A DNA stretch of 64,000 nucleotides from Trichodelitschia bisporula (taxonomy: Eukaryota > Ascomycota > Dothideomycetes > Phaeotrichales > Phaeotrichaceae). Made by a program: the position numbers and the translations under genes. Under the pieces are notes generated by a model, which saw only the letters and a program-made list of their open reading frames with translations, was not told where the DNA came from and did no database searches. Below, in pieces: positions 8,467-64,000 of this stretch (within the stretch, counting starts at the first letter, position 1; the number at the start of each line of letters is the position of its first letter). The DNA is taken from assembly GCA_010356995.1 (NCBI GenBank), contig ML996694.1, positions 1,071,634 through 1,135,633 on the forward strand, read 5' to 3'.

Positions 8467-11400
8467 TCACCCCATCTGCCCAATCTGCCTCCTCTGTCTC
8501 CTCTGCCTCCACCGATACGCCCCCCTCATCCACCCCTTAAAACTCCCCAAATACACCAACCAAATCATAATCCCAATCACACTCATCGGCCCCGCCGTAA
8601 CCCAAAACACCCACTGCCCCTCATTCAAATTGCGTATATCCTTCGTATTCATCCCAAAGAGGCTCGCCAACATAGTCAGCGGCAGGAAGAGCACGCTGAC
8701 GGTCGTGAATGCCAGCGCGGCCTTTTCCTGCCGGTCTTTGTTCGACTCGACCATGCGGAAGTGCTGAGTCGTCAGCCTGAACACGGAAAGGGAAGGCTCA
8801 ACTTACCCAAGCTTCTAGCTCCCCCACCCGCCGCGCCATCTCGACAAAGTTCGCGAGCGTGACATCCGCGCTCTGCAGACTCAGCTCTATAACCGCCGTC
8901 TCGCGCGCCGGCGTCTTCGTCCCCGCCGCTCCCTCCCCAATAACACTCTTCGCCTCGCTCGCCCTTACACTATCATCCAACGCAACCAGCACCCTCTGCT
9001 CGTCCTCCAGGATCCCGGCAATAGTATCCAGCTCCCCCTTCAAGCTCAGGAAGGTCTCCTGATGCCTACGGCTCAGCGGCGTGGCATGCACTTCCGCAGT
9101 CTACCCCATTAGCTCTACCCGAGCGAAAACCGGTCACACGTTACTCACCACCGCCTGAATATCCCGCCAATACAACGTCGCAAGCCGATGTCTATCCGCA
9201 AACATCGGCGCCCCCCTCGCATCCTGCACCAACTGCGCAACCAGCACCGCCGCCGCCCCCGTCGTTGTCGCCGCCTCCCGCTCCCTCAAACTCACCGTCT
9301 GTAACCGCCGCACAATCTTCATTTTCCCAGCCGCAAGCAGCGCCTTTGCCCGTCGGGCGTAGTCCGCCGTGCGCCCCGCCTCCCCCGTGACCGCGAGGAC
9401 GGCGAACATAAGCACCAGGAGCCAGGCCTGGATGAATTCGTGCGGTACGTTGGTTTGGTTGTAGAGTGCCGGCGGGGACGCACCATGCCGCCCGAAGATC
9501 TCATGCTTGACATCGCTCGCCGCGTGTGCTAAGCTGCGCACCCTCCGCGCGGTCGCCGCAAGGGTAGTGGCGCTGGGCGGGGAGCGCAGGAGCCGATCGA
9601 GCGCGCCCCAGTACTTGCCAGCTACGGGGTGGGCGTAGGCAAGCGGGTAAAAGAGCGTGAAGATAGCGCGAGCGGCGCGGAAGAGGGCCTGGCGCTGCGA
9701 GTTTAGGCCCGTCCCGTCGTCCGGTGGGAGCGAGGCTATGTAATTTTTGACTTCCGTGTAGGTTTTTTGCGGGCAGGTGTGCCAGGCTGCGGCTTCGCCG
9801 CGGCGCCGGTTGGTGGTTGTGAGGTAGGCGTCTATTTCGTCGGAGTCGGCGCGGAGGCGGCCTTGGTCCACTACGAGTTTGGGGGGGGCGGCGGGGGTGG
9901 TATCTGAGATTGGCGGGGAGGGGGCGTCGGCGCGTGTGGCCATTAGGGTGAAGACGTACCAATTGTCTTTGGTGGAGCTTTTTTCTTCGTCGGTTGGGAT
10001 GGGGGTTAGGGGGCGCATGGCGGGATCGTCCGCGTTACCGGTCTCGTCTGAAGTTTGGATTTCGGGGAGGTCGGCGTCGGAATCGGAGTCGTCGTAGGAA
10101 CTGTCGTCGTCGTCACTGTAAAGTTTTAGTTCGTATCAATTGGTCATAGATATGCTTCTCCCACTCACTTTTTCTGTAAGGTTAGCCTGATTGAGACCTT
10201 TGCCGCAAGCGCCATAATTTTGGGCCAGTCCTGTCGGGTAATCCGGGCTCCCTGATAAACAACATCCCACCCCTCGAAGAGATCGACTCCAAGTTCGGCG
10301 AAGTTCGAAGCAAATTCCTGGCAATTAGCCGAAGCCGGATGATGGAGCATATGTGCCTTACCGGCCATGTCACACAAGTATCAGCTGGAATGAGCCACGT
10401 CCGGATGCCGCCGTCTGATACGATTATAACCGGGGCACGGTCTCCAGAGTTACGGCGGTGAGGGTCGGCTGGCGGGAGGGTCTTGATGTTTATAAACTGG
10501 CCTGGCATATCCTCGATCGCTCTTCGGGCGCAAGTGATCATGAGGCCTGTTTCTGTCAGCGCTGACACAAGGCGTCCATCCGGAGACTTACTGTCGCCCA
10601 CCATAAGACACCACAGCTGTGCAACTTGAAAATAGTTTCCCTCCAGCACATATCCGGAATTGAGAAACGGATACTCCACCGGTTCCGAGGCTGTAAACCG
10701 CCTTTTCACCTTACCCACCGGCTGATCGCTCGTCACAAAGTACGGGATACACATCCACTTGACTGTCTCCACCTTCTGGCGCCTGGACCTGAACCCCTGG
10801 AAAACCGTTTGCTGAACCGTTTCCTCATAGAACTCCGGCTCAACATAGCTGCCCTGCTTCCCCGGCGGCATACGCAGCGATTTCTCGGAATTCTGTCGCG
10901 CAACCCGCAGAATGCTGCCCACGTTCTCGCGCTGCCCCGCGTCGAGCCACGGACATTCCAGCACCACCTGTACAAAGGTTCCAAACACCATCCCCGGATT
11001 CTCAACATGCATCCAGCGATATAGCGGACGCGACAACTCGCGCTGCTGCACACGCCGATTCGTCCCCGTCAACAACTCAGCGCTGAGATCGCCCCCACGG
11101 AACAAATCACCCACATATCGCGAGCGATACACGCGATACACAGTGGTGAGCCGATCCTTCTCATCGCCCTTAAAACTCGTCGAACTCGTCAAGCGGCGGT
11201 CATCCCCCTCCTCAGGTAGCCCCAAGCCCTCATCATCATCCTCCAAAAGCATCTTCTTCTGCAACCCCAAATTGAAGCTATTGTAGCTAGAATCCGAGTC
11301 TCCGTCTTCGAGAACCATGTCGTCGGTTCCCACGCGCGAGAAGTCCTTGGATGCGATCATGTCCCCCTCGTCCGACGAACTCGCGCTGCTGGTGCTCCCG

Positions 11401-30344: not shown

Positions 30345-31155
30345 CTACTTCTGCATCATAAGCTGAACAAACTCGTTGTCTGTGGAGTTAGTAAGTATTC
30401 TGTTACGGGATGAACTTTCTCACAATCGATCCGGCCATCGCCATCCTGGTCAGCCTCCCGAATCATCTCATCGACCTCATCATCGGTGAGCTTCTCACCG
30501 ATGGAAGTCATGACATGACGAAGCTCAGCAGCAGAGATAAAGCCATTGTTATCACGGTCGAAAACCTTGAAGGCCTCGCGGATCTCCTCCTCGGAGTCCG
30601 TATCCTTCATCTTGCGGGCCATCATGGTGAGGAACTCAGGGAAGTCGATGGTGCCATTGTTGTCAGCGTCCACTTCGTTGATCATGTCCTGCAGCTCCGA
30701 CTCGCTCGGGTTCTGGCCCAGCGAGCGCATCACGGTGCCCAGCTCCTTGGTTGTAATCTGGCCTATCAGGCATATGCGTCAGCGCGGATTCGTGGGTTGC
30801 GATATGATGCGTCGCATCGTGCGCCTGCTTGCAGCCTGCAGGTACAGGTATCGAGCGGATTGGTAGCGCTTCTATCGAGACTCACCATCGCCATCCTTGT
30901 CCTATAGGAGGATATCGCGATTAGCCCAGGCTCAGGTTGAGGGGTAATGGTGTTGATCTGCCCCACCATACGGAAATGCGCAGGTGGGAATCGATGAGAA
31001 TGACTTACAAACAGAGAAAAGGCTTCCTTAAACTCGGAGACTTGCTCCTCGGTAAGAGAATCGGCCTGAGATGATAATTAGCGAAGGGTTCAAGAGGATG
31101 AAGGAATGGTTATGGATGGAGAAGTGGGGAAACGGGTAACGCAGCAACACACCAT
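30345..31155 (-). CDS. cmdA: calmodulin
   Basis: The Ca2+ sensor calmodulin. Five exons on the minus strand: 31155-31153 (only ATG), 31065-31009, 30901-30886 (16 nt), 30762-30424 and 30379-30345. The sum is 450 nt, or 149 residues, exactly the canonical fungal length. The joined protein starts [20 protein letters not shown], and the 16-nt exon supplies DKDGDG of EF-hand 1. The other Ca2+ loops are [24 protein letters not shown] and [12 protein letters not shown], the last completed by the final exon, which ends FVQLMMQK. All four EF-hands carry their acidic ligands. Every exon join is fixed by the near-invariant protein, so the model is secure. The gene shares an upstream region with TLG2 in the opposite direction. 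I give cmdA as the common mould symbol; other names are in use. Confidence 0.98.
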
Positions 31156-31625: not shown

Positions 31626-32869
31626 ATGTGGCGAGATCGCACAAACCTGTTCGTCAGCCTCCGGACACCGTTCCCTAGCTATGCTAACATTTTCCTAGCT
31701 ACATTTCCTATCGCCAGTCGTACTCGCATCATCCCGCTAAACGGCCACAGCATGGCATCCTCGGACCGTATGGTGACTCAGGCGCCTCGGGCATCGTGCC
31801 CGAGGAGCGCCGCGGCCTCATGTCGGCGGGCGCATACGAGGACGATGGCGACGCGGTGATTGAGATGGACCTGCTTCCGCCGCGGTGGATGGACGTGCAA
31901 GACGAGGTGACGGAGATGCTTCAGGACATCGCGTCACAGACGCGCAAGCTCGAACAGCTACACCAGAAGCACGTTTTACCCGGCTTTGACGATGAGGACG
32001 TGAAGAAGCGCGAGGAGCGCGAGATCGAGCGTGTTACACAGGCTATCACGCGCCAGTTTCACGGGTGCCAAAAGGCCATCCAGCGCATCGATAAGATGGT
32101 CAAGGAGAGCCGAGAAACTGGAGGCGTGAGCAAGGGCGAGGAGGCGATGGCGCGGAACTTGAAGGTTTCTCTTGCTGGGCGGGTCGGTGATGCGAGTGCG
32201 CTCTTCCGCAAGAAGCAGTCTGCTTACTTAAAGAGTACGTCTATGCTCTAATCCTAGGGCCTTGCTAATCCCTTAGAACTGCGCTCCATGGGCGGTTTCG
32301 CATCCCCTATCCCTTCCTCTACCCCCATCCCGAACGCCTACGCCACCGACCCCTCCCTTATGGAGTCTGAAACGGATCGCTCATTCTCGCAGTCGACACT
32401 CATGCAAGCGCATCAAAGCCGGATGCATAACCCGAATGAGACTGCCATCGCGCAGCGGGAGCGGGAGATCGAAGACATCGCGCAGGGCATCATCGAGCTG
32501 GCCAACATCTTTCAAGAGCTGCAGACCATGGTCATCGACCAAGGCAGCATGCTAGACCGCATCGACTACAACGTGGAGCGCATGGCCGTGGACGTCAAGG
32601 CTGCGGATAAGGAACTGACCGTGGCAACGGGGTACCAAAAGCGCAGCGTGAAGCGCAAGGTCCTCCTGCTGCTCATCATCCTGGTGGCTGGCATGTTCAT
32701 CCTGCTTGGACTTAAGCTGAGCAGCAAATCTTCACCACCGGCGCCTGCTCCAGTTGCTCCTCCAGCCGTCGAGCAGCCGCCGCAGTTCGTGAGGAAAAGT
32801 GATACGGAGGCTGTAGCGCTAGGACTGCGGAGAAACTGGAGGCGGAGGAAGCGGCGGCTGTGGGATTAA
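31626..32869 (+). CDS. tlg2: t-SNARE syntaxin Tlg2 / syntaxin-16 type
   Basis: A Qa-SNARE of the trans-Golgi/early endosome. Exons 31626-31648, 31699-32234 and 32277-32869 join in phase to 383 residues. The first donor must be the GTTCGT after AACCT; this gives MWRDRTNLYISYRQSYSHH, the conserved Tlg2 N-terminus that binds the Sec1-type partner Vps45. The SNARE motif runs from about residue 243 to 308 (EREIEDIAQGIIELANIFQE), with the central glutamine near 266. It is followed by a basic KRSVKRK and one membrane anchor, about 315-333 (VLLLLIILVAGMFILLGL). A short Pro/Ala-rich lumenal tail follows. Length and order fit the family. The gene is divergent from calmodulin and convergent with the mucin-like gene. 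Confidence 0.95.
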
Positions 32870-33197: not shown

Positions 33198-36100
33198 CTA
33201 CTCAACCACTTGAACCACTGCCTTAATCCTATGCAACTTCATCTTACGCTCCTTCTTCCTCCCAAGCTTAGACCACGCCCTCCGCTTCTCCAACGCACTC
33301 CCCACCGGCTGCCCCTGTGCGAACACCGTGGCTCCATTGCCCGGAACCCCGAAGAACAGCTCCGCGCCGTCGATGATGCCGGCGCGCAGGGTGCCGTCGC
33401 AGTCGATGGACCACACACTGACCTGTTAGTATGCTAAAAGGTTGAGAGTGGAGTGGCTTACGTGGTAATGTAATCATCCGAATTCTGCCCGTCAGAACTG
33501 GTGGGTACGAAGCCGAGGTGCTCATCTGGGAAGATGGCGAGGACGGCGGAGCCGGAGGGTGAGTTGTACACGAGGTCGTAGACGCTGAGGCGCGGTTAGC
33601 TTCTTTCCTCTTGGGGGGTTTGGACTAGGACATACCCGCAAGGCGCATTCGGCGGCCGGCTGAAGGTGTAGAACGTGTTTGGATCCGTACCGTTGGGCGA
33701 TACTACGGCAGTGTTGTTCTGGTTTACAATTTCTAGCCCGCTGGCGGCGTCTTGGAGGACCTATGTCGTTAGGAGGGTCCGTTAGGGAGAGGAGGGGCTT
33801 ACAATGCGGTCAGTTCCTGCGTCGGGGTTGGCTTTGCAACCGGTGTAGTCGGCGGGATACATTGCTTGATAGCCTGGCAAGGTTAGAGGTGGATTTACCG
33901 GGGCATGGAAGGAGAAGCATATACCTCTATTGCTCGTACTATTCGCAACACTGCGAACGCAGCTACTGCTCGCAGAAGCGGGTGTGCCACCAGACGTCGG
34001 GCTTGGACCGGAGCTGGGGATTGATGTCACAGCCGATGGGGGCGTCGTGCCTGGAGCACCGGAGGACGAGTTGGCGGCCGCGGATGTAACGTTCGGGGAG
34101 GTGGATGAGGGTGATACAGATGGGCCTGGGGTTGCTTCTGATGGGGCCCCAGCGGGAGTTGGTTCGACTAATGGCGAGTTCTCTGCTGTGCTATTGGGAG
34201 TCCCGCTCCCGGTAGCTAGCGAAGGGGCGGCGGATGTAACGTTCGGGAGGAGGGATGGTGCTCCTGATATCGACGATTCTGGAGTTGCTTCAGGGGACAC
34301 CCCAGTGGGCTCGATGGACGGGGAGCTCAGGGCCGTGGTGTTGGGCGCCGTACCACTTCCGCTAGGTGCAGCAACTCCAACAGACGTGGCATTTGGCAGC
34401 AATGATGGTTCTCCAGATATCGATTCTGGTGTCGGCTCTGGCGATGTGCCCGTCAGTAGAGGCGGACTTCCGGTAGGCGAAGCAATTCCGGCAGATGTCT
34501 CATTTAGCGGCGATGATGGTACTCCAGATATCGATCCCGGTGTCGGCTCTGGCGATGCACCTGTCAGCAGAGGCTCACTTCCAGTAGGCGAAGCAATTCC
34601 AGATGTGGCGTTCAGCAGCGATGAAGGCGCCCCAGATATCGATTCCGGAGTCGGCTCCGGCGATACACCCGTAGATAGAGGAGCACTACCGATTGGCGCG
34701 GCACCCCCAGTAAACGTGGTATTGAGGACCGAAGATAGGAATGCAGATAGCGATCCCGGTGTCGGCTCTGACGACACACCTGTCAGTAGCGGCGCACTTC
34801 CGGTAGGCGAAGCAATCCCGGCAGATGTGGCATTAGGGAACGAAGACGGCACTCCCGATATTGGCCCGGGTGTCGAGTCCGACACCCCTCCTATCAGTGG
34901 CGGCCCAGCTGTGGGTGTGCCCACGGCGGTGCTGTTTTCGATGCCGCTTCCTGTAGGCAAAGGGCCACTGGCTGAAGATGGCGCCTCCGCTGTGGTGAGA
35001 TTGGCAGCAGCAGAGGAAGCGTTAAGGGAGGGGATCGGAGAAACTCCTGCGGGAATCGACGCATCGGGTGTTGCTAACGGTTCGACTCCCGTTGGAGATC
35101 CAATGCCGCTAGATGGAGCGGCATCACTGGCGCCCGAAGTGGCATTGGGGAAGAGAGGCGACGAGGGCGCGCCGGATACTGGCAGACCTGTGCTACCAAC
35201 GGACGGCTCGGGAGTCGGCTCGACGGCTGTGTTCAGCGGGACGGCGCTTCCGGCGGATGGAGCAACGGGCGACGTGGCATTCGGGAAGACGGGCAGCGAC
35301 GAGCCACCCGATACTGACCCTAGGGTTTCAAGCGGGGCGCCCACAGACGATGGCTCAGCGAAAGGAGTCTCTGCTGTCGTGTTTGAAGGGATACTGCTTG
35401 TAGATGAAGGGCCGGAGACGGGCGATGTGGCGTTGAGGGATGGAAGAGGTGCCCCCGATATCGAAGCCGCGGGTGTTTCTGGCGGTAGCTCAGATGAAGA
35501 AACTTCGGTGGCATTCGTGGGCACCGCCGCACTCGTTCCAGACGGAACTTCAGCTGCTGAGGTAGCATTCGGGAAGGGAGGGGATGAGGGCAAGCCAGAT
35601 GGCAATACCGAGCTGGACGGTTCGACGGACGCAGGTTCAGCAGTGGCATTCGGACCAATCCCGGTTCCAAGTGCGGTAGGGGCAGATGCAGATGTCACAT
35701 TTGGCGAGAACGGAGAAGACGGTGAACCCGATACTGGCGGCAATTCTGGAGCTCCACTCTCCTCGGTGGCATTGGAAGGGGCCACACCGCTTGCCGGAGA
35801 TGGAAGAGACGTGGCATTCAGCGAAGTTGAAGGCGTTAGTGATGCCGGTTCAGTTGCGTTAGGGCCTGAGGGTCCGGTGGCATTTGTTGGAAGGGTAGCT
35901 TCGGGAATGCCGCTAGATGGTCCAGAAGTGAGCAGCGAAGTCGGTGTGGAACTTTCAGTTCCGTTGACGGACGGGACGCTCGTCAAGTTTGCCGGAGATG
36001 CTGTTCCAAGGGGCCCGCTGGGTGACGGTTCGGTAACATTAGAAGTTGGCGTGGCGGCACTCGTCACATTCGATGGGTTAGGAATTATGCTTGCCGAAGG

Positions 36101-37017
36101 CTCTGATGGCGCAGTACCCACGGCACTCGAGTTAGCTGAAAGCGAAGTAACTGGGGTTGAAGAAATATTGGCAACGGGGCTCGGAGACAGTCCGCTGCTG
36201 GCACCGGCAGTGGGAACGCCGCCAAACGCAGTGTTGCGCGGGAGCGTGAGGGTGACGCTGCCTGTGCCCTGCGTTGCTGGACGAGCACTTTCAGTACCGT
36301 TTGGCAAAGGAGGGACTGGGGGAATGGAAGATCCTGCCGGAGGACTGATCGTTGTGACAGAGGCTCCACACGAGCTGACTGTTATCACGTAAATGGTGTC
36401 TTCGGTCAAAGTGGTCGTTCCAAACTGAGAAGTGTAAGCAGATGGGAAGTCATAGGTAAGATACGGATGGGAAAGAGGGTTGGAAAGCTTGGGAGTTATG
36501 ATGGAAGGGGGAGAGCATACTGGAACGATGGAAGTGCTCGTCCCAGGAGTGAATCCAAGGCACGAGCACACACTGGAGTAGCTCATCGGGTTGCTGCTGC
36601 ATTCTGAAGTGGCATAATCCGGTACAGTTTTCGTAAGGGACGGGGAGGGACTGCTGCTCTCAGAAGTTTGCGAGACTTGTCGGCGCATATGCTGGTTCGC
36701 ATATGCCATATGCCGCCGATGTGTTGGTTGACATCCCATTGTCAAAGTGACTGTTGAAAGGGTAGAAGTTACAGTGTCTGTGGCAGAGCTAACCAGGTCA
36801 GTGAATGCAAGAGGAATGAGAGCAGGACATACGGTGTTGAACGAGTGATAGTCTCTGCAAGGAACGAGCTGCAATCAGTCTCGATCTTAGTAGCACTTTG
36901 CGGCCCGAAGCCCGCCTTTTCGACGGCAGAGGCACAGCTGTTCCATACACAGACATCCCGCTTAACGAGCGCAGCGGAGATGCTGTTCACAAAGACGAAG
37001 AGAAAACAAGCCCTCAT
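33198..37017 (-). CDS. secreted mucin-like protein with 36-37 residue tandem repeats
   Basis: A predicted extracellular or cell-wall glycoprotein of 1195 residues. Six exons on the minus strand: 37017-36833, 36788-33925, 33873-33803, 33760-33636, 33585-33463 and 33417-33198, all phase-consistent. The start MRACFLFVFVNSISAALVKR is a signal peptide followed by a KR Kex2-type site; the ATG at 37065 would bury it, so 37017 is preferred. A short Cys-containing N-domain (CVWNSCASAV) follows. Then comes about 850 residues of Ser/Thr/Pro/Ala sequence full of N-X-S/T sequons, mostly NATS. From about residue 650 it settles into 36-37 residue units around EPTPGSISG. The last 150 residues form a separate folded-looking domain (YPADYTGCK, NGTDPNTFYTFSRPP, VWSIDCDGT) on five small exons. 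No GPI signal is present; the tail is basic. Function unknown. The last intron has two acceptors 6 nt apart, both in frame. Confidence 0.8.
34340..34900 (-). repeat. in-frame tandem repeat array of 108-111 nt
   Basis: At least five copies of a unit occur inside the mucin-like gene. The plus-strand landmark GGTGTCGGCTCTGGCGA or a close variant starts near 34428, 34539, 34647, 34758 and 34869. Spacings are 111, 108, 111 and 111 nt, that is 36 or 37 codons, so copy-number change would keep the frame. Units differ by substitutions and are not recent perfect copies. Confidence 0.8.
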
Positions 37018-43140: not shown

Positions 43141-44422
43141 TTAGATCTTGATGGCAGACTCGAGGGCCTTGCGCTTCTTCTCGGTCCTTGCGTTAGCCTT
43201 GGCGCCCATGATGCCACCACCCCACCGCTTGCGAGCCTCCTCCTGAGGACCCAGATAGCCCTCCTTGATGGCCGACACGACCTTGGAGAATTCGGACTTG
43301 TCCTCCGAGCGAACCTCGGTCAGGGCAAGAACAGCAGCGGTCTTCTTGTGCACGACAGTCCCCAGGCGCGCCTTGCCCTTGATGATGGCGTATGGAACGC
43401 CCATCTTGCGGCAGAGCGCGGGAAGGAACACGACGAGCTCGATGGGGTCAACATCGTTCGGGATCAGGACCAGCGAAGCCTTCTTGTTCTGCTTAGGGTC
43501 AGCATTCTGTCCTGAACAACTATCGGGGTTCGCTTTACCTCAATCAGGGCAACGACGTGGTTCAGACCGTACTTGACGGTGTGCGGCTTCTTAGACACAT
43601 CCTCCTTCTTCTTGCCCTCGGCAATGGCGGTGGCCTCCTTGGTGAGACGCTCCTTCTTCTCAGCCTTGGTCTCAGGGCGGTACTTGTTCAGCAACTTGAA
43701 GACCTGAGCGGCCTGGTTGCGGTCGAGCACGTTCTGAAACTGAGCAATCGCAGGAGGGACCTTGAGGCGCCTGGCTCTATTAGTACTTGTGCAGAACAAT
43801 TTCTTGGGAAGTCCTTACAGGTTCAAGATCTTGCGCTGGCGCTGAAGACGAACATACTCCGGCCACTTCACCATGCGAGACACTATTGAACCGTAAGCCT
43901 ATGCACTTTTGATAAGACGCTTCACTGACGGTTGCGGTGGGGCTGGATGTCCTGGCCGATGCCATAGTTGCGCGGGCGCTTCTCGATGAGCGGGTTCTTC
44001 GCATCGGTTAGCATTGACGCGCTTGGAAGCACAGATAACTTACCTTGGCCGGCTTCTTGGACGAAGTCTTCCCCTGGGGGAAAGGAGCGGGAGCCGCCTT
44101 CTTGCTCTTCGGTGCCTATGCAAGCCCAAGTTACTCCATGTTTCCTCGGCTGTCATTGAGAGAAGGGGACCAAGAGCATTCGTGCGTATTGAGTCCTCTT
44201 CATCTCTAAAGAGACAGAGCGGCGCATTGCTGCGTCGCCCCACTCAAGCCATTCTCGTCATCCACGCCGAGTGACGGCTCCGAGCGCTTGTGAGGCACCA
44301 CGGAGGAGCACCTGAAAGTGTGGTGCGATTGTGGGAACAAGGCGCGAAGCAGGAGTTGGCCAGAGAGTAAAGAAGACTCAACCGTTTCGATTCTCTGGAG
44401 CATAAATCGAGCTGCTTACCAT
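43141..44422 (-). CDS. rpl8: 60S ribosomal protein eL8 (RPL8/L7a)
   Basis: Large-subunit ribosomal protein eL8. Six minus-strand exons fit: 44422-44420 (only ATG), 44115-44044, 43996-43930, 43882-43819, 43770-43539 and 43488-43141. They give 261 residues, the normal size. The joined start [22 protein letters not shown] is the fungal eL8 start, and the core ([39 protein letters not shown]) is the L7Ae/L30e RNA-binding fold. The first intron is 304 nt, unusually long for this window. I searched it for box C/D snoRNA signals (RTGATGA, CTGA) and found no convincing pair. The intron before exon 5 ends in two acceptors 6 nt apart; the downstream one gives the expected NLRLKVPP. The gene is divergent from a SET-domain gene 300 nt away. 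Confidence 0.97.
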
Positions 44423-46426: not shown

Positions 46427-47886
46427 TCAATCGAGCTTGCTCCTGCCACGTTTGCGCTGCTCCTGGCTCTCCTTTCTTCTCCGCCATTGCCATTCCAACA
46501 AGACAGGCATAAAGTGCCAGAGATCAAATTCCGGCCACATGCACTCAAGGAACACTATCTCCGTAGTTTCATGGCATTGCCACAGCATGAAGTCGCTGAG
46601 CCTTTCGACACCGCTTGTACGGATTAGCAAGTCCAAGGGCGGGGTATGCGCTCCTGTGAATGTGTGCGCCGTCAGAACGTCCGCAGTAATGGTTTCGGGG
46701 TCCGGATAGTTGACAGGTGGCGCAGCGGGCGCGCTTGGTGGATCGCTGGAGCTGAGGTAGAGGGTAGTCGAAGCTGAAGAGCCGAGGTCGGGCTGCGGAG
46801 ACCAGTCCTGGATTCGCTCTGCCAGAGAAAGGAGCTCGGCAAAGGCGGTTGAAGAAATATAGCCGAGAGTAGCGGTCACCGCCTCCTTCTTCTCGTCCTC
46901 GTCCAGTGATGGGTTCTTCAGTCGCTCAAGAATCAAGCAACCGGCCTTACGGCCGAAAGAATTCGCAAAAGACACGTCGTCTTCCTGTGAGCTTCGAATA
47001 TTCTCAGTGGCTATGCTGACAATACGATCAAAGGCAGCTTTCGATTCTGGGTTCGAGGGGGTATAATTCCATTCCTCGTCGTCCAGCCGCGCGAAATCAT
47101 TGTGCGCATCCTCATCGCCTTCGGTCACAGTTCCTAGCTGCCGAGCTCGGATGTTGCGTGCAATATGCGATTCCGAGAAGGGGCGCTTGGTCGAGTTTTG
47201 AATTGGTTTTGTGTAGTCGACAACAGTGTTCCGGATGGCAGTGGTAATTTCATCTCGCGAGGTGTATGGGGCGCAAATGTTCAGGACCGCTCTGTAGCGC
47301 GGTAAGTGCTGTGGCTTCTCCGACACGCTCAAAGACTAACCGAGAGTTCCCGCTTGTCATCTTTATGGCATTTTCAATGGCGTCCAGCACATCAGGCCGG
47401 ACCATTTCTTTCTGACCCAGGAACTCCATCCTTGCGCCATAACGCTCCAGAAGCTCGCCATGCTGCGCAAGCTGTGACAGCTTCACCTTGGCCATATCCA
47501 TGAGCGCGTCAACTTCGTATTTTGTACGCTTGAAGTTCTCAATGCTGAAGGCGTATATCGTCACAACTTTAACGCCAATTTTGTAGCACACCTCGAGAAT
47601 CTGACAACACCCTGCTATTAGCGCCTTGAACCAGCTAGAACACTTTGAGACCTATCCCGACCTTTGCCAATGCTTCAAAACCGAGGTTGTGTCCTTCAAT
47701 CGGCTCAATTTGGTGACTTCGGGCAAACCGTCGGTTGCCGTCCATGACGAAAGCGACATGCTGAGGCACGGCTCCTTGACGCATTGCGCCTAGGAGAAGC
47801 TCCCTAACGTGCTGAACAGCCCACTCCGCTGGTGGCGATTGCAGAAACCATTTGCGTATTTGCGACAGGTGTAGCGAAGAGGACAT
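46427..47886 (-). CDS. rer2: cis-prenyltransferase (dehydrodolichyl diphosphate synthase, Rer2 type) with a large insertion
   Basis: This enzyme elongates farnesyl diphosphate to the dolichol precursor used in ER protein glycosylation. Three minus-strand exons, 47886-47662, 47600-47341 and 47291-46427, give 449 residues; yeast Rer2 has under 300. Family blocks are present in order. HVAFVMDGNRRFA gives the catalytic Asp, GHNLGFEAL and TIYAFSIENFKR follow, and NICAPYTSRDEI comes next. Then LDLLIRTSGVERLSDFMLWQ and WPEFDLWHF close the active site. Between NICAPYTSRDEI and LDLLIRTSG lies an extra stretch of about 167 residues (about 47197-46697). It is acidic and partly helical and has no partner domain I recognise. 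All exon joins are fixed by conserved blocks, so the insertion is not a mis-spliced intron: it is open in frame throughout. The C-terminus is basic. Confidence 0.93.
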
Positions 47887-57067: not shown

Positions 57068-60000
57068 ATGAACTTCGGCTTCAGTAACTACGATGATTCG
57101 GCTGCTCGCACAGGTGTGCCACTTCCGGGTCAAGGTCGGAGAAACAGTCACCAGTACGAAGACATAGCCACGCCAGATGAGCAGCGGGGCTTGCACCGGA
57201 CGACGACATCCCAATCTCACGCGCATCGCCCCACCACAGCCACAGCCCCTGAAAGTTCCGCTGAGAAGTCCGACTTGAAGGAGGACATCAGTACGAAAAA
57301 GGACGATGACGATGCCAGCACGGACGAGGAGGACGAGAAGCGCGATCACCGAATCCAGGAACTAGCGCGTCAATTGACGCGCCAGTCGTCATTCTCCGTG
57401 GCCGGAGATGTCAACCCCTTCAATGCCAAAGAAGACTCACGCGTCAACCCTCAGTCACCCAATTTCTCGGGAAAGACGTGGGCCAAAGCTGTCCTGCGCA
57501 CGATTGAGCAGGATCCGAACTCGGGCCCTCTGCGTACTGCTGGTGTCGCATTCCGGAATCTGAATGCGTACGGCTTCGGCACGGCCACCGACTACCAGAA
57601 GACGGTTGGCAACATTGTGCTCCAGGGTGTCGGGATTGTGCGCCAGCTCTTCGGCTTCGGCAAGCGCCGTATCGATATCCTGCGGGATTTCGAGGGTGTT
57701 GTGTACGCGGGCGAGATGCTGGTGGTGCTCGGCCCCCCTGGTTCAGGGTGCTCTACCTTCTTGAAGGTGCTTGCCGGAGAGACTGACGGCCTGAACGTGG
57801 ACGAGAACTCGTACCTGAACTATCAAGGTACGTTGATATCACATGATGCGCGCGAGCGCCATTGCCGTGCGCCATTGCTGACATGAGGTGAAACAGGCAT
57901 CAGCGCAAACCAAATGCATAAGTATTTCCGTGGTGAGGCTATCTATACGGCCGAAGTCGACGTTCACTTTCCCATGATGACCGTCGGCGACACCTTGAGC
58001 TTTGCTGCGCGCGCCCGCGCTCCGCGCATCCCCCCTGGCGGCGTGACTAAGGAGGTCTTTGCCGACCACATGCGTGACGTCGTCATGGCCATGTACGGCA
58101 TTTCGCACACGAACAACACCATGGTTGGCAACGACTTCATCCGCGGTGTCTCCGGTGGTGAGCGCAAGCGCGTGACAATCGCCGAGGCCACCCTTTCCCA
58201 GGCCCCGCTGCAGTGCTGGGACAACTCGACGCGTGGTCTCGACAGTGCCAACGCTCTTGAGTTCTGCCGGACGCTGCGGATCTCCGCCGACGTGATGGGC
58301 TCTACCGCTTGCTTGGCCATCTACCAAGCATCGCAGGCCGCGTACGACGTGTTCGACAAGGTCATCGTTCTGTACGAGGGCTATCAGATCTACTTCGGCC
58401 CCTCGCGTGCGGCCAAGCAGTACTTCCTGGACCTGGGCTTTGACTGCCCCGATCGCCAGACCGTGGCTGATTTCTTGACGTCGATGACCAGCGCCGCCGA
58501 GCGTGTTGTGCGTCCGGGATGGGAGAACAGGGTGCCCCGCACAGCGGCAGAATTTGCCCAGAAGTGGAAGGAGTCGGAAACGCGCAAGGCGCTCCTCGTT
58601 GAGATCGACGAGTACGACAAGAAGTACCAGATTGGCGGCGAGTACCTGGAGAAGTTCAAGGTGTCGCGCAAGGCTCAGCAGGCTCGGTCGCAGCGCATCA
58701 AATCGCCTTACACGCTGTCGTATCGCGAGCAGGTCGGACTGTGCTTGTGGCGCGGCTTCGTGCGGCTCAAGGGTGATCCCAGCCTTACGTTCTCGCAACT
58801 GTTCGCCAACTGCATCATGGCTCTTATCGTCGGCAGTGTCTTTTACAACATGAAGCAGGATACGGCCAGCTTCTACTCGCGCGGTGCTCTGCTTTTCTTC
58901 GCCATTTTGCTCAATGCCTTTGGCAGTGCTCTCGAGGTATGTGCGTGCCTTCCCACCTCGAGCCTATTCTAACGTGCCAGATTCTTACGCTTTATGCGCA
59001 ACGACCCATCGTCGAGAAGCATTCCCGCTACGCCTTTTACCATCCGTCCGCCGAAGCCTTCGCCAGCATGTTAACTGATATGCCGTACAAGATTGCGAAT
59101 GCCATATTTTTCAATCTTGTGCTGTACTTCATGACCAATCTGCGACGTGAACCGGGAGCCTTCTTCTTCTTCCTGCTGGTTTCGTTCACCCTGACGTTGA
59201 CCATGTCCATGTTCTTCCGAACACTCGCATCCGTCTCTCGAACTCTGTCCCAAGCCATGGTTCCCGCCGCTATCCTCATCCTCGCCATCGTCATCTTCAC
59301 CGGTTTCGCCATTCCAACGCGGTACATGTTAGGCTGGTCACGCTGGATCAATTACTTGGATCCCGTTGCGTATGGCTTCGAATCGCTCCTGATCAACGAG
59401 TTTCATGGTCGCAACTTCACCTGCTCCACCTTTGTGCCAACCGGTCCTGGTTACGGCAGTGCGGCTGGGTTGAACCATGTCTGCACTGCCGTCGGCTCCA
59501 AGGCTGGGCTGTCAGTTGTGACTGGCACTGACTACATCGTTTCATCCTTCAACTACTCCCCGTCGAACAAATGGAGAAATTATGGCATCCTCATCGCATT
59601 CATGCTCTTCCTCATGGCTACCTACTTAGGCGCTGTCGAGTTGATCTCTGGGAAGAAGTCGAAGGGCGAAGTCTTGGTGTTCCGGCGTGGCCACACCCCC
59701 GCCGCTCTGAAGCACGCCGACCGGCCTCGGTCGAAGGAGGACCTGGAAGCTGGCACCCCGCCTAGTACAGCTCTGTTGCAACCCGGCGGGCTGCAACCGC
59801 CTGCCAGTGGTGCTAACAGCCCGAAGGCTCAATCGATCCTGAAGCAGTCATCCGTCTTCTCGTGGCGCAACGTCTGCTACGACATCAAGATCAAGAAGGA
59901 ACCGCGCCGCATCCTTGACAATGTTGACGGTTGGGTCAAGCCTGGCACGCTGACTGCGCTCATGGGCGTCTCTGGTGCCGGGAAGACTACTCTCCTCGAT

Positions 60001-61806
60001 GTCCTGGCTTCGCGTGTCACGATGGGTGTTATCACCGGCGACATGTTGGTTGACGGCCGCCCACGCGATGCGTCTTTCCAGCGCAAGACCGGCTACGTGC
60101 AGCAGCAGGATCTCCACCTTTCCACGTCTACCGTCCGCGAGGCGCTCAACTTCAGCGCCCTGCTCCGCCAGCCTGCGAACATTTCGCGCAAGGAAAAGCT
60201 CGAGTATGTCGATGAGGTGATTAAGCTGCTGGAAATGGAGGAGTATGCCGACGCCGTTGTCGGTGTGCCTGGCGAGGGCCTGAACGTTGAGCAGCGCAAG
60301 CGCCTCACCATCGGCGTCGAACTTGCCGCGAAGCCCCAACTGCTACTCTTCCTCGACGAGCCGACTTCCGGCCTGGATTCGCAGACGTCCTGGGCCATTT
60401 GCAATCTCATGGAGAAGCTTACCAACAGCGGCCAGGCCATTCTGTGCACCATCCACCAGCCGTCCGCCATGTTGTTCCAGCGCTTCGACCGCCTGCTGTT
60501 CCTCAAGAGCGGCGGCCAGACCGTGTACTTTGGCGAGATCGGCAAGAACTCCTCGATCCTGACGGCGTACTTTGAGCGGAACGGCGCGGCGCCCTGCCCG
60601 CCTGATGCTAACCCCGCTGAGTGGATGCTCGAGGTCATTGGTGCAGCGCCCGGATCCAAAACTGATATCGACTGGACGGCGACGTGGCGTGGTAGCCCTG
60701 AGTATGCTGAGATCCAAAGGGAACTGGACCAGATCAATGCGGAGCGTCTCGCGGCGACGGCTGACCAGACTGATGAGGCTAACAAGAGCGCGTACCGCGA
60801 GTTTGCGGCGACTTTCCCGACTCAACTGTGGGAAGTGCAGAAGCGTGTCTTTGAGCAGTACTGGCGTACGCCGAGCTACATCTATTCCAAGATGGCGCTC
60901 TGCTTGTTCTCGTCCCTCTTCATTGGCTTTGCCTTCTTCAATACGCCTCTCAGCCAACAAGGTCTCCAGAATCAGATGTTCGCCATCTTCACGCTCCTCA
61001 CCATCTTCGGCCAGCTCGTCCAGCAAATCATGCCTCACTTCGTCACCCAGCGCGCCCTTTACGAGGTGCGCGAGCGCCCGTCCAAGACGTACTCGTGGAA
61101 GGCCTTCATGCTGTGCAACATCATGGTCGAGCTGCCCTGGCAGACACTGATGGCCGCCATCATGTACTTCTGCTGGTACTATCCGATCGGGATGTACAAG
61201 AACGCGATGCCTACGGACGCGGTCACATCGCGTGGCGCGCTGATGTTCCTGCTCATCTGGGTGTTCATGATCTTCACGTCGACCTTTACGCACATGTGCA
61301 TCGCAGCGATTGAGACGGCGGAGACGGGTGGCAACATTGCGCAGCTGCTTTTCTCCCTGTCGCTCATCTTCTGCGGTGTGCTTGCTGGCCCGTCGTCCCT
61401 GCCTGGCTTCTGGATCTTCATGTACCGCGTCTCGCCGTTCACGTACCTCGTCTCGGCCGTCCTGTCGACTGGGCTGGCGAACACCAATGTGCACTGCGCC
61501 TCCAACGAGTACCTCCACTTCAAGCCCCCGAACGGCTCAACCTGCGGCGAGTACATGGATCCGTACATCAAGTTCGCGAGCGGTTATCTGCTGGACCGGG
61601 AGGCGACGGACGACTGCAGCTTCTGCGCCATCAGCAGTACCAACACCTTCCTTGCCGCGGTCAGCTCGGACTTCAATGACCGGTGGCGGAACTTTGGAAT
61701 TATGTGGGTGTATGTGGCATTCAATACGGCGGCGGCGCTGTTCTTCTACTGGTACTTCCGGATGCCCAAGGGGGAGCGCAAGGAGAAGAAGAAGAAGGCG
61801 GAGTAA
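57068..61806 (+). CDS. PDR-type (ABCG) full-size ABC transporter
   Basis: A plasma-membrane drug or lipid efflux pump of the pleiotropic drug resistance group. Exons 57068-57827, 57897-58936 and 58981-61806 join in phase to 1541 residues. The order is (NBD-TMD) twice, as in yeast Pdr5. NBD1 has the PDR-specific Walker A with Cys in place of Lys (GPPGSGCST, about residue 222). It also has signature [11 protein letters not shown] and the degenerate Walker [14 protein letters not shown]2 has the canonical Walker A (GVSGAGKTT, about residue 929) and Walker B ([12 protein letters not shown]), and a degenerate signature [11 protein letters not shown]. This pattern means one catalytic site is degenerate and one intact, which is usual for the family. 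Each TMD has about six hydrophobic segments and a Cys-bearing extracellular loop. The N-terminus is acidic and soluble. An in-frame ATG at 57044 also exists. The substrate cannot be predicted. Confidence 0.96.
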
Positions 61807-62270: not shown

Positions 62271-64000
62271 ATGAAATACGTATTAGTGTCTGGAGGTATC
62301 TACCGGTACAATTTTTACACAGGCGCCAGCTAACCCCGCTACTTAGGTGTGATCAGCGGTGTGGGCAAGGGCATAATCGGTACGCCTGTTGTCTAGAATT
62401 TCTGAGCCGTCTAACTCGCGTCAACAGCTTCGTCCACGGGCCTGCTGCTCAAGACCATCGGGCTTAAGATACGTACTCCGGCTCTTCGCGTGCTTCCCCG
62501 CTAACAGTCACACGTCTCATCGATCAAGGTCGACCCATACCTCAATGTCGATGCGGGGACTATGAACCCAAAAGAGTGCGTCTGATGGGCCCACCTTATA
62601 GCGACGCTGACCCAATAGGCATGGCGAAGTCTTTGTCCTCGACGACGGCGGCGAAGTCGACCTCGATCTCGGCAACTACGAGCGGTATCTCAACGTCACG
62701 CTGACACGCGACAACAACATAACGACGGGCAAGATATATAAGCACGTTATTGAGCGGGAGCGCAAGGGCGATTACCTGGGCCGCACGGTGCAGGTGGTGC
62801 CGCATGTCACGGACGCGATTCAGGAGTGGATCGAGCGCGTGGCGAAGATTCCGGTGGATGATACGGGCGAGGAGCCGGATGTCTGCATCATCGAGCTTGG
62901 TGGCACGGTTGGCGATATCGAGAGCATGCCCTTTGTTGAGGCTATGACGCAGCTGCGGCGCCGTGCGGGCAAGGGCAACTTTCTCCAGATCCATGTTTCG
63001 TACATTCCGGTCATTCATGGGGAGCAGAAGACGAAGCCCACGCAGCAGGCCATTCGTGGTGTGCGCAGTGCGGGTCTCATTCCGGATCTGGTGGGTCGCC
63101 TTGCATGATTCCCGAAGACACCGCTGACCGATAGATTGCGTGCCGCTGCGAAATGGAGCTCGAGAAGAGCACGGTTGAGAAAATCGCACACTTTTGTCAG
63201 GTCGACGTAGAGCAAGTCATCGTCGTCCGGGACATGCCCTCTATCTACCAGGTGCCGGTCCTCCTGGAGGAACAGGGCCTCATCCCTTTGCTCAAGCAGG
63301 GGCTGCAGCTCGACGCCACCATCGAGCCTGACATGCTCACCCGCGGCAAGCACATCTGGCAGCAATGGAGGACCCTAACCACGCCGAACCAAAACTTCTA
63401 CGAGCCACTCTCCATCGCGCTGGTCGGGAAGTACACCACCTTCCACGACTCCTACCTCAGCGTGATCAAGGCGCTCGAGCACAGCGCTATGCGCTGCCGC
63501 CGCCGCCTCACCATTATGTGGGTGGACAGCGAGCACCTCGAGCCTGCGGCCCAGGAGACGGATCCCGCGAAGTACCACAAGGCGTGGCATAACGTGTGCA
63601 CTGCGGACGGGATTCTCGTCCCCGGCGGCTTCGGCGACCGCGGCACCGAGGGCATGATTGCCGCCGCCCGCTGGGCCCGTGAGAATAAGCGCCCCTACTT
63701 GGGTATCTGCCTCGGGATGCAGATTGCAGTGATTGAGTTCGCGCGCAATGTTGTTGGGATGGCGGGGGCTACGTCGGAGGAGTTTGTGGCCAAGGATGCC
63801 GAAGGGAAACCTGCCGCGAAGACCGATCAACTGGCCATCGTCTTCATGCCTGAAATCGACAAGACGACTATGGGCGGCACGATGCGCCTCGGCCGCCGGC
63901 CGACGCACTTCCAGCCCGGCAGCGAGTGGAGCAAGCTGCGCGCGCTGTACGGCGGGAAGGAAACGATTGACGAGCGGCACCGGCACAGATACGAAGTCAA
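62271..64000 (+). CDS. ura7: CTP synthase, 3' end outside the window
   Basis: This enzyme makes CTP from UTP, ATP and glutamine. Exons visible here are 62271-62295, 62347-62379, 62428-62468, 62514-62575, 62619-63090 and 63135 onward, running off the window end. The synthetase domain starts [18 protein letters not shown] (nucleotide-binding loop) and includes [22 protein letters not shown] and [14 protein letters not shown]. The glutamine amidotransferase domain shows the oxyanion region [11 protein letters not shown] and the nucleophile Cys in YLGICLGMQ. Joins 1, 2, 4 and 5 are normal GT-AG introns. The third (62469-62513) has no workable GT-AG reading. Only removal of a 45-nt AT...AC segment gives the invariant [14 protein letters not shown]. 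The C-terminal His/Glu of the amidotransferase triad lie beyond the edge. The gene is partial here, not broken. Confidence 0.96.
62469..62513 (+). other. candidate AT-AC intron in CTP synthase
   Basis: The upstream exon ends GGGCTTAAG (GLK) and the downstream exon starts GTCTCATCGATCAAG (VSSIK). Between them 45 nt begin ATACGT and end CACAC. The branch-site-like GCTAAC lies about 10 nt before the end. The start resembles the ordinary GTACGT donor with G1 changed to A, and not the U12 consensus ATATCC. The phase is 0 and no stop-free GT-AG alternative of normal length restores the conserved protein. Confidence 0.75.

Follow-up and report, generated by a model that had tools for sequence, protein, structure and literature searches.

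A probable U2-type AT-AC intron in the CTP synthase gene of a probable ascomycete

In the 64-kb stretch of DNA analysed here (the window), the gene for CTP synthase, an essential enzyme, is interrupted by an AT-AC intron of 45 nt, the third of the gene, which is probably excised by the ordinary U2-type (major) spliceosome; we give this reading a probability of about 88%. The splicing at 62469-62513, the spliceosome used and a contact between the first A and the last C of the intron were all inferred from sequence. The same reading had been proposed in a preliminary description of this DNA, and it was supported by protein homology, reading frame, splice-signal scores and intron length, while the 5' site failed as a U12-type site.

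The CTP synthase gene is truncated by the end of the window, so 499 residues are in view (Table 1). The joined protein matched 27 distinct PDB sequences, with a best E value of 1.7e-205 over residues 1-499, and the similarity ran along the protein, including the synthase-domain motif. The junction left by the AT-AC intron was spanned by 25 of these 27 sequences, and the five alignments printed were all gapless there. Retention of the intron, whose 45 nt read ATACGTACTCCGGCTCTTCGCGTGCTTCCCCGCTAACAGTCACAC, places an in-frame TAA in the gene, and its removal joins the exons in phase 0, leaving the near-invariant CTP synthase motif intact in a frame of 499 residues.

Table 1. Positions, in the window, of the CTP synthase gene, its introns and the putative splice signals of the AT-AC intron
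Feature	Position	Strand	Remarks
CTP synthase gene	62271..64000	+	five introns; stop-free spliced ORF of 499 codons up to the window end
Intron 1	62296..62346	+	GT-AG, 51 nt; in the gene-finder model once AT-AC was allowed
Intron 2	62380..62427	+	GT-AG, 48 nt; in the gene-finder model once AT-AC was allowed
Intron 3 (predicted)	62469..62513	+	AT-AC, 45 nt, phase 0; restores the conserved motif exactly, strong donor, ordinary branch distance
Intron 4	62576..62618	+	GT-AG, 43 nt
Intron 5	63091..63134	+	GT-AG, 44 nt
5' splice site AAG/ATACGT	62466..62474	+	donor score 7.2, ends read as GT
Branch motif GCTAAC	62500..62505	+	branch A at 62504; score 6.5, joint top with other GCTAAC introns
3' splice site AC (CAC/G)	62512..62513	+	from frame, signals and comparison of removals
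Decoy AG	62506..62507	+	ends 3 nt past the branch A; probably skipped, as four modelled introns likewise bypass an AG at this distance

The boundaries of the intron were compared with a protein profile built from outside relatives, namely prokaryote CTP synthase loci, the best 80 of at least 582 relatives (at least 593 contig stretches). By their titles one of these 80 loci was from Chloroflexi and the others from marine archaeal groups, none being fungal, and only those whose aligned part contained no stop were taken into the profile. The CTP synthase motif was ungapped in all 80; a scan of viral sequences gave no relatives. Against this profile 715 removals of 21 nt or more in this region were scored, all of them in frame and free of stops; that of the AT-AC intron ranked first (237.3). 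The next-best scores belonged to other 45-nt registers with non-splice ends, only 0.6 bits or more lower; it is the splice signals that decide among them. The sixteen in-frame removals with GT-AG, GC-AG, AT-AG or AT-AC ends (at least 10 nt, with a start at 62430-62529 and an end no later than 62569) were also compared, and the runner-up was the AT-AG removal 62469-62507, with 230.9, 6.4 bits below AT-AC. The GT-AC removal 62473-62511 reached 231.3 with a poor donor (-0.8). The preliminary description had stated that the exact enzyme motif appears upon removal of the 45 nt, and this was borne out by the frame, the stop upon retention and the first place among the 715 removals. It had also held that an 18-nt GT-AG removal, adding ten foreign residues, was the only in-frame GT-AG pairing; both points needed correction. 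The 18-nt removal (62490-62507), which is in frame and scored 221.6, adds nine residues (IRTPALRSH), and a 39-nt GT-AG removal (62490-62528, 227.4) keeps the frame as well. The donor common to both scored -0.9; the AT donor, when its end bases are treated as GT, reached 7.2.

Gene models came from a simple gene finder that had learned from GT-AG genes in the window itself, with intron costs set by hand; for the signal matrices the training set was 31 modelled GT-AG introns, the candidate AT-AC intron being excluded. Two sets of GT-AG introns served for comparison. The first, of 39 introns, was made of 37 modelled ones, mis-placed ones included, to which CTP synthase introns 1 and 2 were added manually. 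The second, of 20 introns, was chosen from genes for which a family or PDB match existed; in this set the alignments across the junctions were inspected only for CTP synthase, ribosomal protein eL8 and the last calmodulin intron. The first introns of a Cdc24-like gene, a SNARE gene and the eL8 gene were left out of it, and so were the introns of the poly(A) polymerase-like, prenyltransferase and F-box/WD40 genes. The gene models contained errors, calmodulin introns 2 and 3 and eL8 intron 3 having been mis-placed and then corrected by hand, and a modelled intron of 111 nt at 36269 is doubtful.

The inner signals of the AT-AC intron were stronger than those of either set. Its donor score equalled that of the best modelled GT-AG donor (AAG/GTACGT at 57828), positions +3 to +6 are ACGT, with the G at +5 that is typical of a U2-like 5' site, and the branch motif, resembling those of the GT-AG introns of this genome, has its A 9 nt before the intron end. 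With the terminal dinucleotides excluded, the inner-signal score was 13.0, compared with a maximum of 10.8 among the 39 GT-AG introns of the gene models and of 11.1 among the 20 selected ones. This score was reached by only one of 14,326 AT..AC pairs spaced 36-75 nt on both strands of the window, the intron itself. When the mononucleotides of its interior were shuffled 20,000 times, none of the shuffles scored above 11.2. The length of 45 nt lies inside the range of the 20 selected introns (42-123), as does the branch distance of 9 nt (7-19, in a search started at 5 nt). The earlier remark that inner signals and length resemble those of the other short introns of this genome agrees with the scores, which exceed those of both sets.

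The gene finder itself, run with AT-AC penalties of 0, -2, -4 and -6, placed 4, 3, 2 and 1 AT-AC introns in the window, respectively. The intron at 62469-62513 was called at all four penalties and was the sole one at -6. With AT-AC ends allowed, the gene began at the ATG at 62271 instead of at 62562 and gained the GT-AG introns 1 and 2. Of nine control dinucleotide pairs, seven likewise took out some piece between 62448 and 62541, because some removal there is obligatory; at equal penalty all control pairs scored below AT-AC, the highest being AT-AG, with 98 against 100.

Two possible acceptors lie behind the branch A at 62504, an AG that ends 3 nt from it and the AC, which ends at 9 nt. An AT-AG intron of 39 nt (62469-62507) would use the same donor and the AG just behind the branch site, adding Ser-His to the protein (GLK-SH-VSSIK). 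This removal is in frame, stop-free and canonical at its AG end, it has the profile score given above, and the gene finder separates it little from the AT-AC intron. Nevertheless, we consider it unlikely. It puts two foreign residues where the 80 prokaryote loci, the best of at least 582, are all ungapped, at a cost of 6.4 bits, and its acceptor would lie 3 nt past the branch A, whereas in the 20 selected introns this distance is 7-19 nt (searched from 5 nt). An AG in that position was bypassed for a later one in the modelled introns 2908-2954, 33418-33461, 43771-43818 and 47601-47661, which counts against the AT-AG acceptor; the third of these sits in the conserved eL8 gene, whose three printed PDB alignments were gapless throughout. 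A fifth example, 43507-43538, was discarded as mis-modelled. One modelled intron of 39 nt, 10553-10591 on the minus strand, ends in GCTGACAG, 3 nt past its branch A, so an AG so near is perhaps not strictly barred from use. The gene of this intron gave no Pfam match in the two frames scanned, and its acceptor may be mis-placed. In addition, by the pairing rule of yeast introns a first A goes with a terminal C, which favours AT-AC over AT-AG.

It could also be argued that the intron is in truth GT-AG and that errors of sequencing or assembly altered its two end bases, since its inner signals are GT-AG-like and the corresponding GT donor is present elsewhere in the window, at 57828. This we regard as very unlikely, as two independent substitutions would be needed, exactly at both termini and yielding just the A/C combination that is known to work, and the neighbouring gene sequence is without stops or frameshifts.

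Excision by the minor spliceosome, as a U12-type AT-AC intron, is a still fainter prospect. The intron has in common with that class the terminal dinucleotides and a short distance from branch to acceptor, and its best match to the U12 branch consensus TCCTTAAC is 5/8. The stretch ending in GCTAAC also gives 5/8, through the TAAC common to both branch consensuses, and the branch site does not discriminate between U2- and U12-type introns. The 5' site does differ, matching the U12 site RTATCCTT at only three of eight positions (ATACGTAC against ATATCCTT). Furthermore, minor introns have been reported to be absent from Ascomycota. The 64-kb window contained no Rfam matches at gathering scores, a result that bears on the window alone. 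Minor snRNA genes were detected in one fungus, Cutaneotrichosporon oleaginosum, according to the accessible text of PMC7072748, which means that Dikarya are not wholly without minor spliceosome RNAs. Taken together, the misfit of the 5' site and the report on Ascomycota make the major spliceosome the most likely agent. Finally, a decaying or nonfunctional gene copy, or a different exon structure such as the 39-nt GT-AG removal 62490-62528, which is in frame, is hardly credible, given zero stops in 499 codons that all match solved CTP synthases, and, for that removal, its poor donor and a product with IRTPALR instead of VSSIK.

If the preferred reading of a U2-type AT-AC intron is right, AAG/AUACGU would be recognised first by U1 and later by U6, through positions +2, +3, +5 and +6 and the exon AG, and the branch motif GCUAAC would base-pair with U2. 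An AG only 3 nt past the branch A would be too near for use. In the second step the first A of the intron would pair with the terminal C, instead of the usual G-G contact, and AAG would be joined to GUC; the near-optimal inner signals plausibly offset the altered intron ends.

Several precedents bear on this mechanism. According to the available part of PMC6726248, AT-AC ends occur in some U2 introns, a mutated yeast intron was spliced more efficiently with AT-AC than with any other dinucleotide combination except GT-AG (for which Parker and Siliciano 1993 is cited), and splicing of an AT-AC protointron, in SUT635, takes place in yeast; none of the standard yeast introns normally uses AT-AC, according to the same text. 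These cases of AT-AC splicing by the major spliceosome resemble the CTP synthase intron in that AT-AC ends are handled in an ascomycete without a minor spliceosome, as would probably be so here, but the natural yeast case is a noncoding RNA that also uses GT-AG (PMC6726248), whereas the CTP synthase intron lies in a coding gene and its removal is needed for the protein. Human SCN4A intron 21, of the U2-type AT-AC class, shares with it the AT-AC ends and a U2-type branch motif, and the sodium-channel examples of this class all have G at +5, as the CTP synthase intron does (PMC2831892, in the text available). The latter differs in being only 45 nt long, in a probable ascomycete and in a metabolic gene, with a branch motif of the fungal consensus. 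In Caenorhabditis elegans, a species without U12-type snRNAs, the U2 machinery is thought to be responsible for AT-AC introns; there, in an animal, 59 were found and at least 42 are suspected to be real, as against one in this window (PMC3033335, as far as its accessible text goes).

Other genes of the window point to the source of the DNA. The eL8 gene (43141-44422, minus strand) has as its apparent start a lone ATG (44420-44422), followed by a GT-AG intron of 304 nt (44116-44419), and three more GT-AG introns were scored in it. The protein was closest to PDB chains 7r81 and 7olc (339 and 329 bits; next, 303), which we take to be from Neurospora and Chaetomium. The calmodulin gene (30345-31155, minus strand) has four GT-AG introns (87, 107, 123 and 44 nt), the first right behind the ATG. 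The last 122 residues of calmodulin were identical (122/122) to PDB 6ui4 chain B, an entry that contains Fusarium graminearum calmodulin (PMC7100991, partial text). Two fusion constructs excepted, the other chains gave at most 227 bits against 257 for 6ui4, among the 60 of 159 chains listed; the fusion constructs were 4il1, with 272.5 for the whole chain and 217 for its best stretch, and 6xu4, with 248. These matches indicate that the DNA comes very probably from a filamentous ascomycete. Directly upstream of the CTP synthase gene lies a gene for an ABC transporter of the PDR/CDR type (57068-61806, plus strand; 1541 aa, two modelled introns). A possible GC-AG intron of 38 nt (31713-31750, plus strand), near the 5' end of the SNARE gene, was the choice of the gene finder when GC-AG was allowed.

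As to rarity, 2.3 million annotated splice-site pairs of fungi included 0.019% with AT-AC ends (PMC7072748) and 0.03% of the introns predicted in another fungal study (PMC4084796), and RNA-seq of fungal pathogens gave 0.09-5.19% depending on the species (PMC6176087), all according to the text available from these papers. The description of AT-AC introns as a rare class is therefore right by genome annotation, with one RNA-seq study giving higher values. The literature on AT-AC introns in fungi, basidiomycetes and ascomycete genera and on CTP synthase, in the portions accessible, contained no report that we recognised as the intron at 62469-62513. The U2-type AT-AC class is already known, and the CTP synthase intron is a clean new member of it. 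Non-canonical intron ends are, in our judgement, often missed or discarded by annotation pipelines; here the boundaries are pinned by a near-invariant motif of the enzyme, which makes this an unusually clean case of AT-AC.

On its origin we offer a tentative view, possible rather than probable: the intron would be a fixed, obligate U2-type AT-AC intron of an essential ascomycete gene, either a trapped U12 relic or a GT-AG intron with the double change of G1 to A and of the last G to C, and its inner signals, the best in the window, would be a selected compensation for weak ends. The first route, in which a U12-type AT-AC intron is 'trapped' upon loss of the minor spliceosome, is proposed in the available text of PMC2831892. 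A comparison of orthologues could separate U12 relics from a paired change of GT-AG, and, as the probable host group is reported to be without minor introns, the CTP synthase intron offers a natural case in which to test how the first base of an intron pairs with the last.
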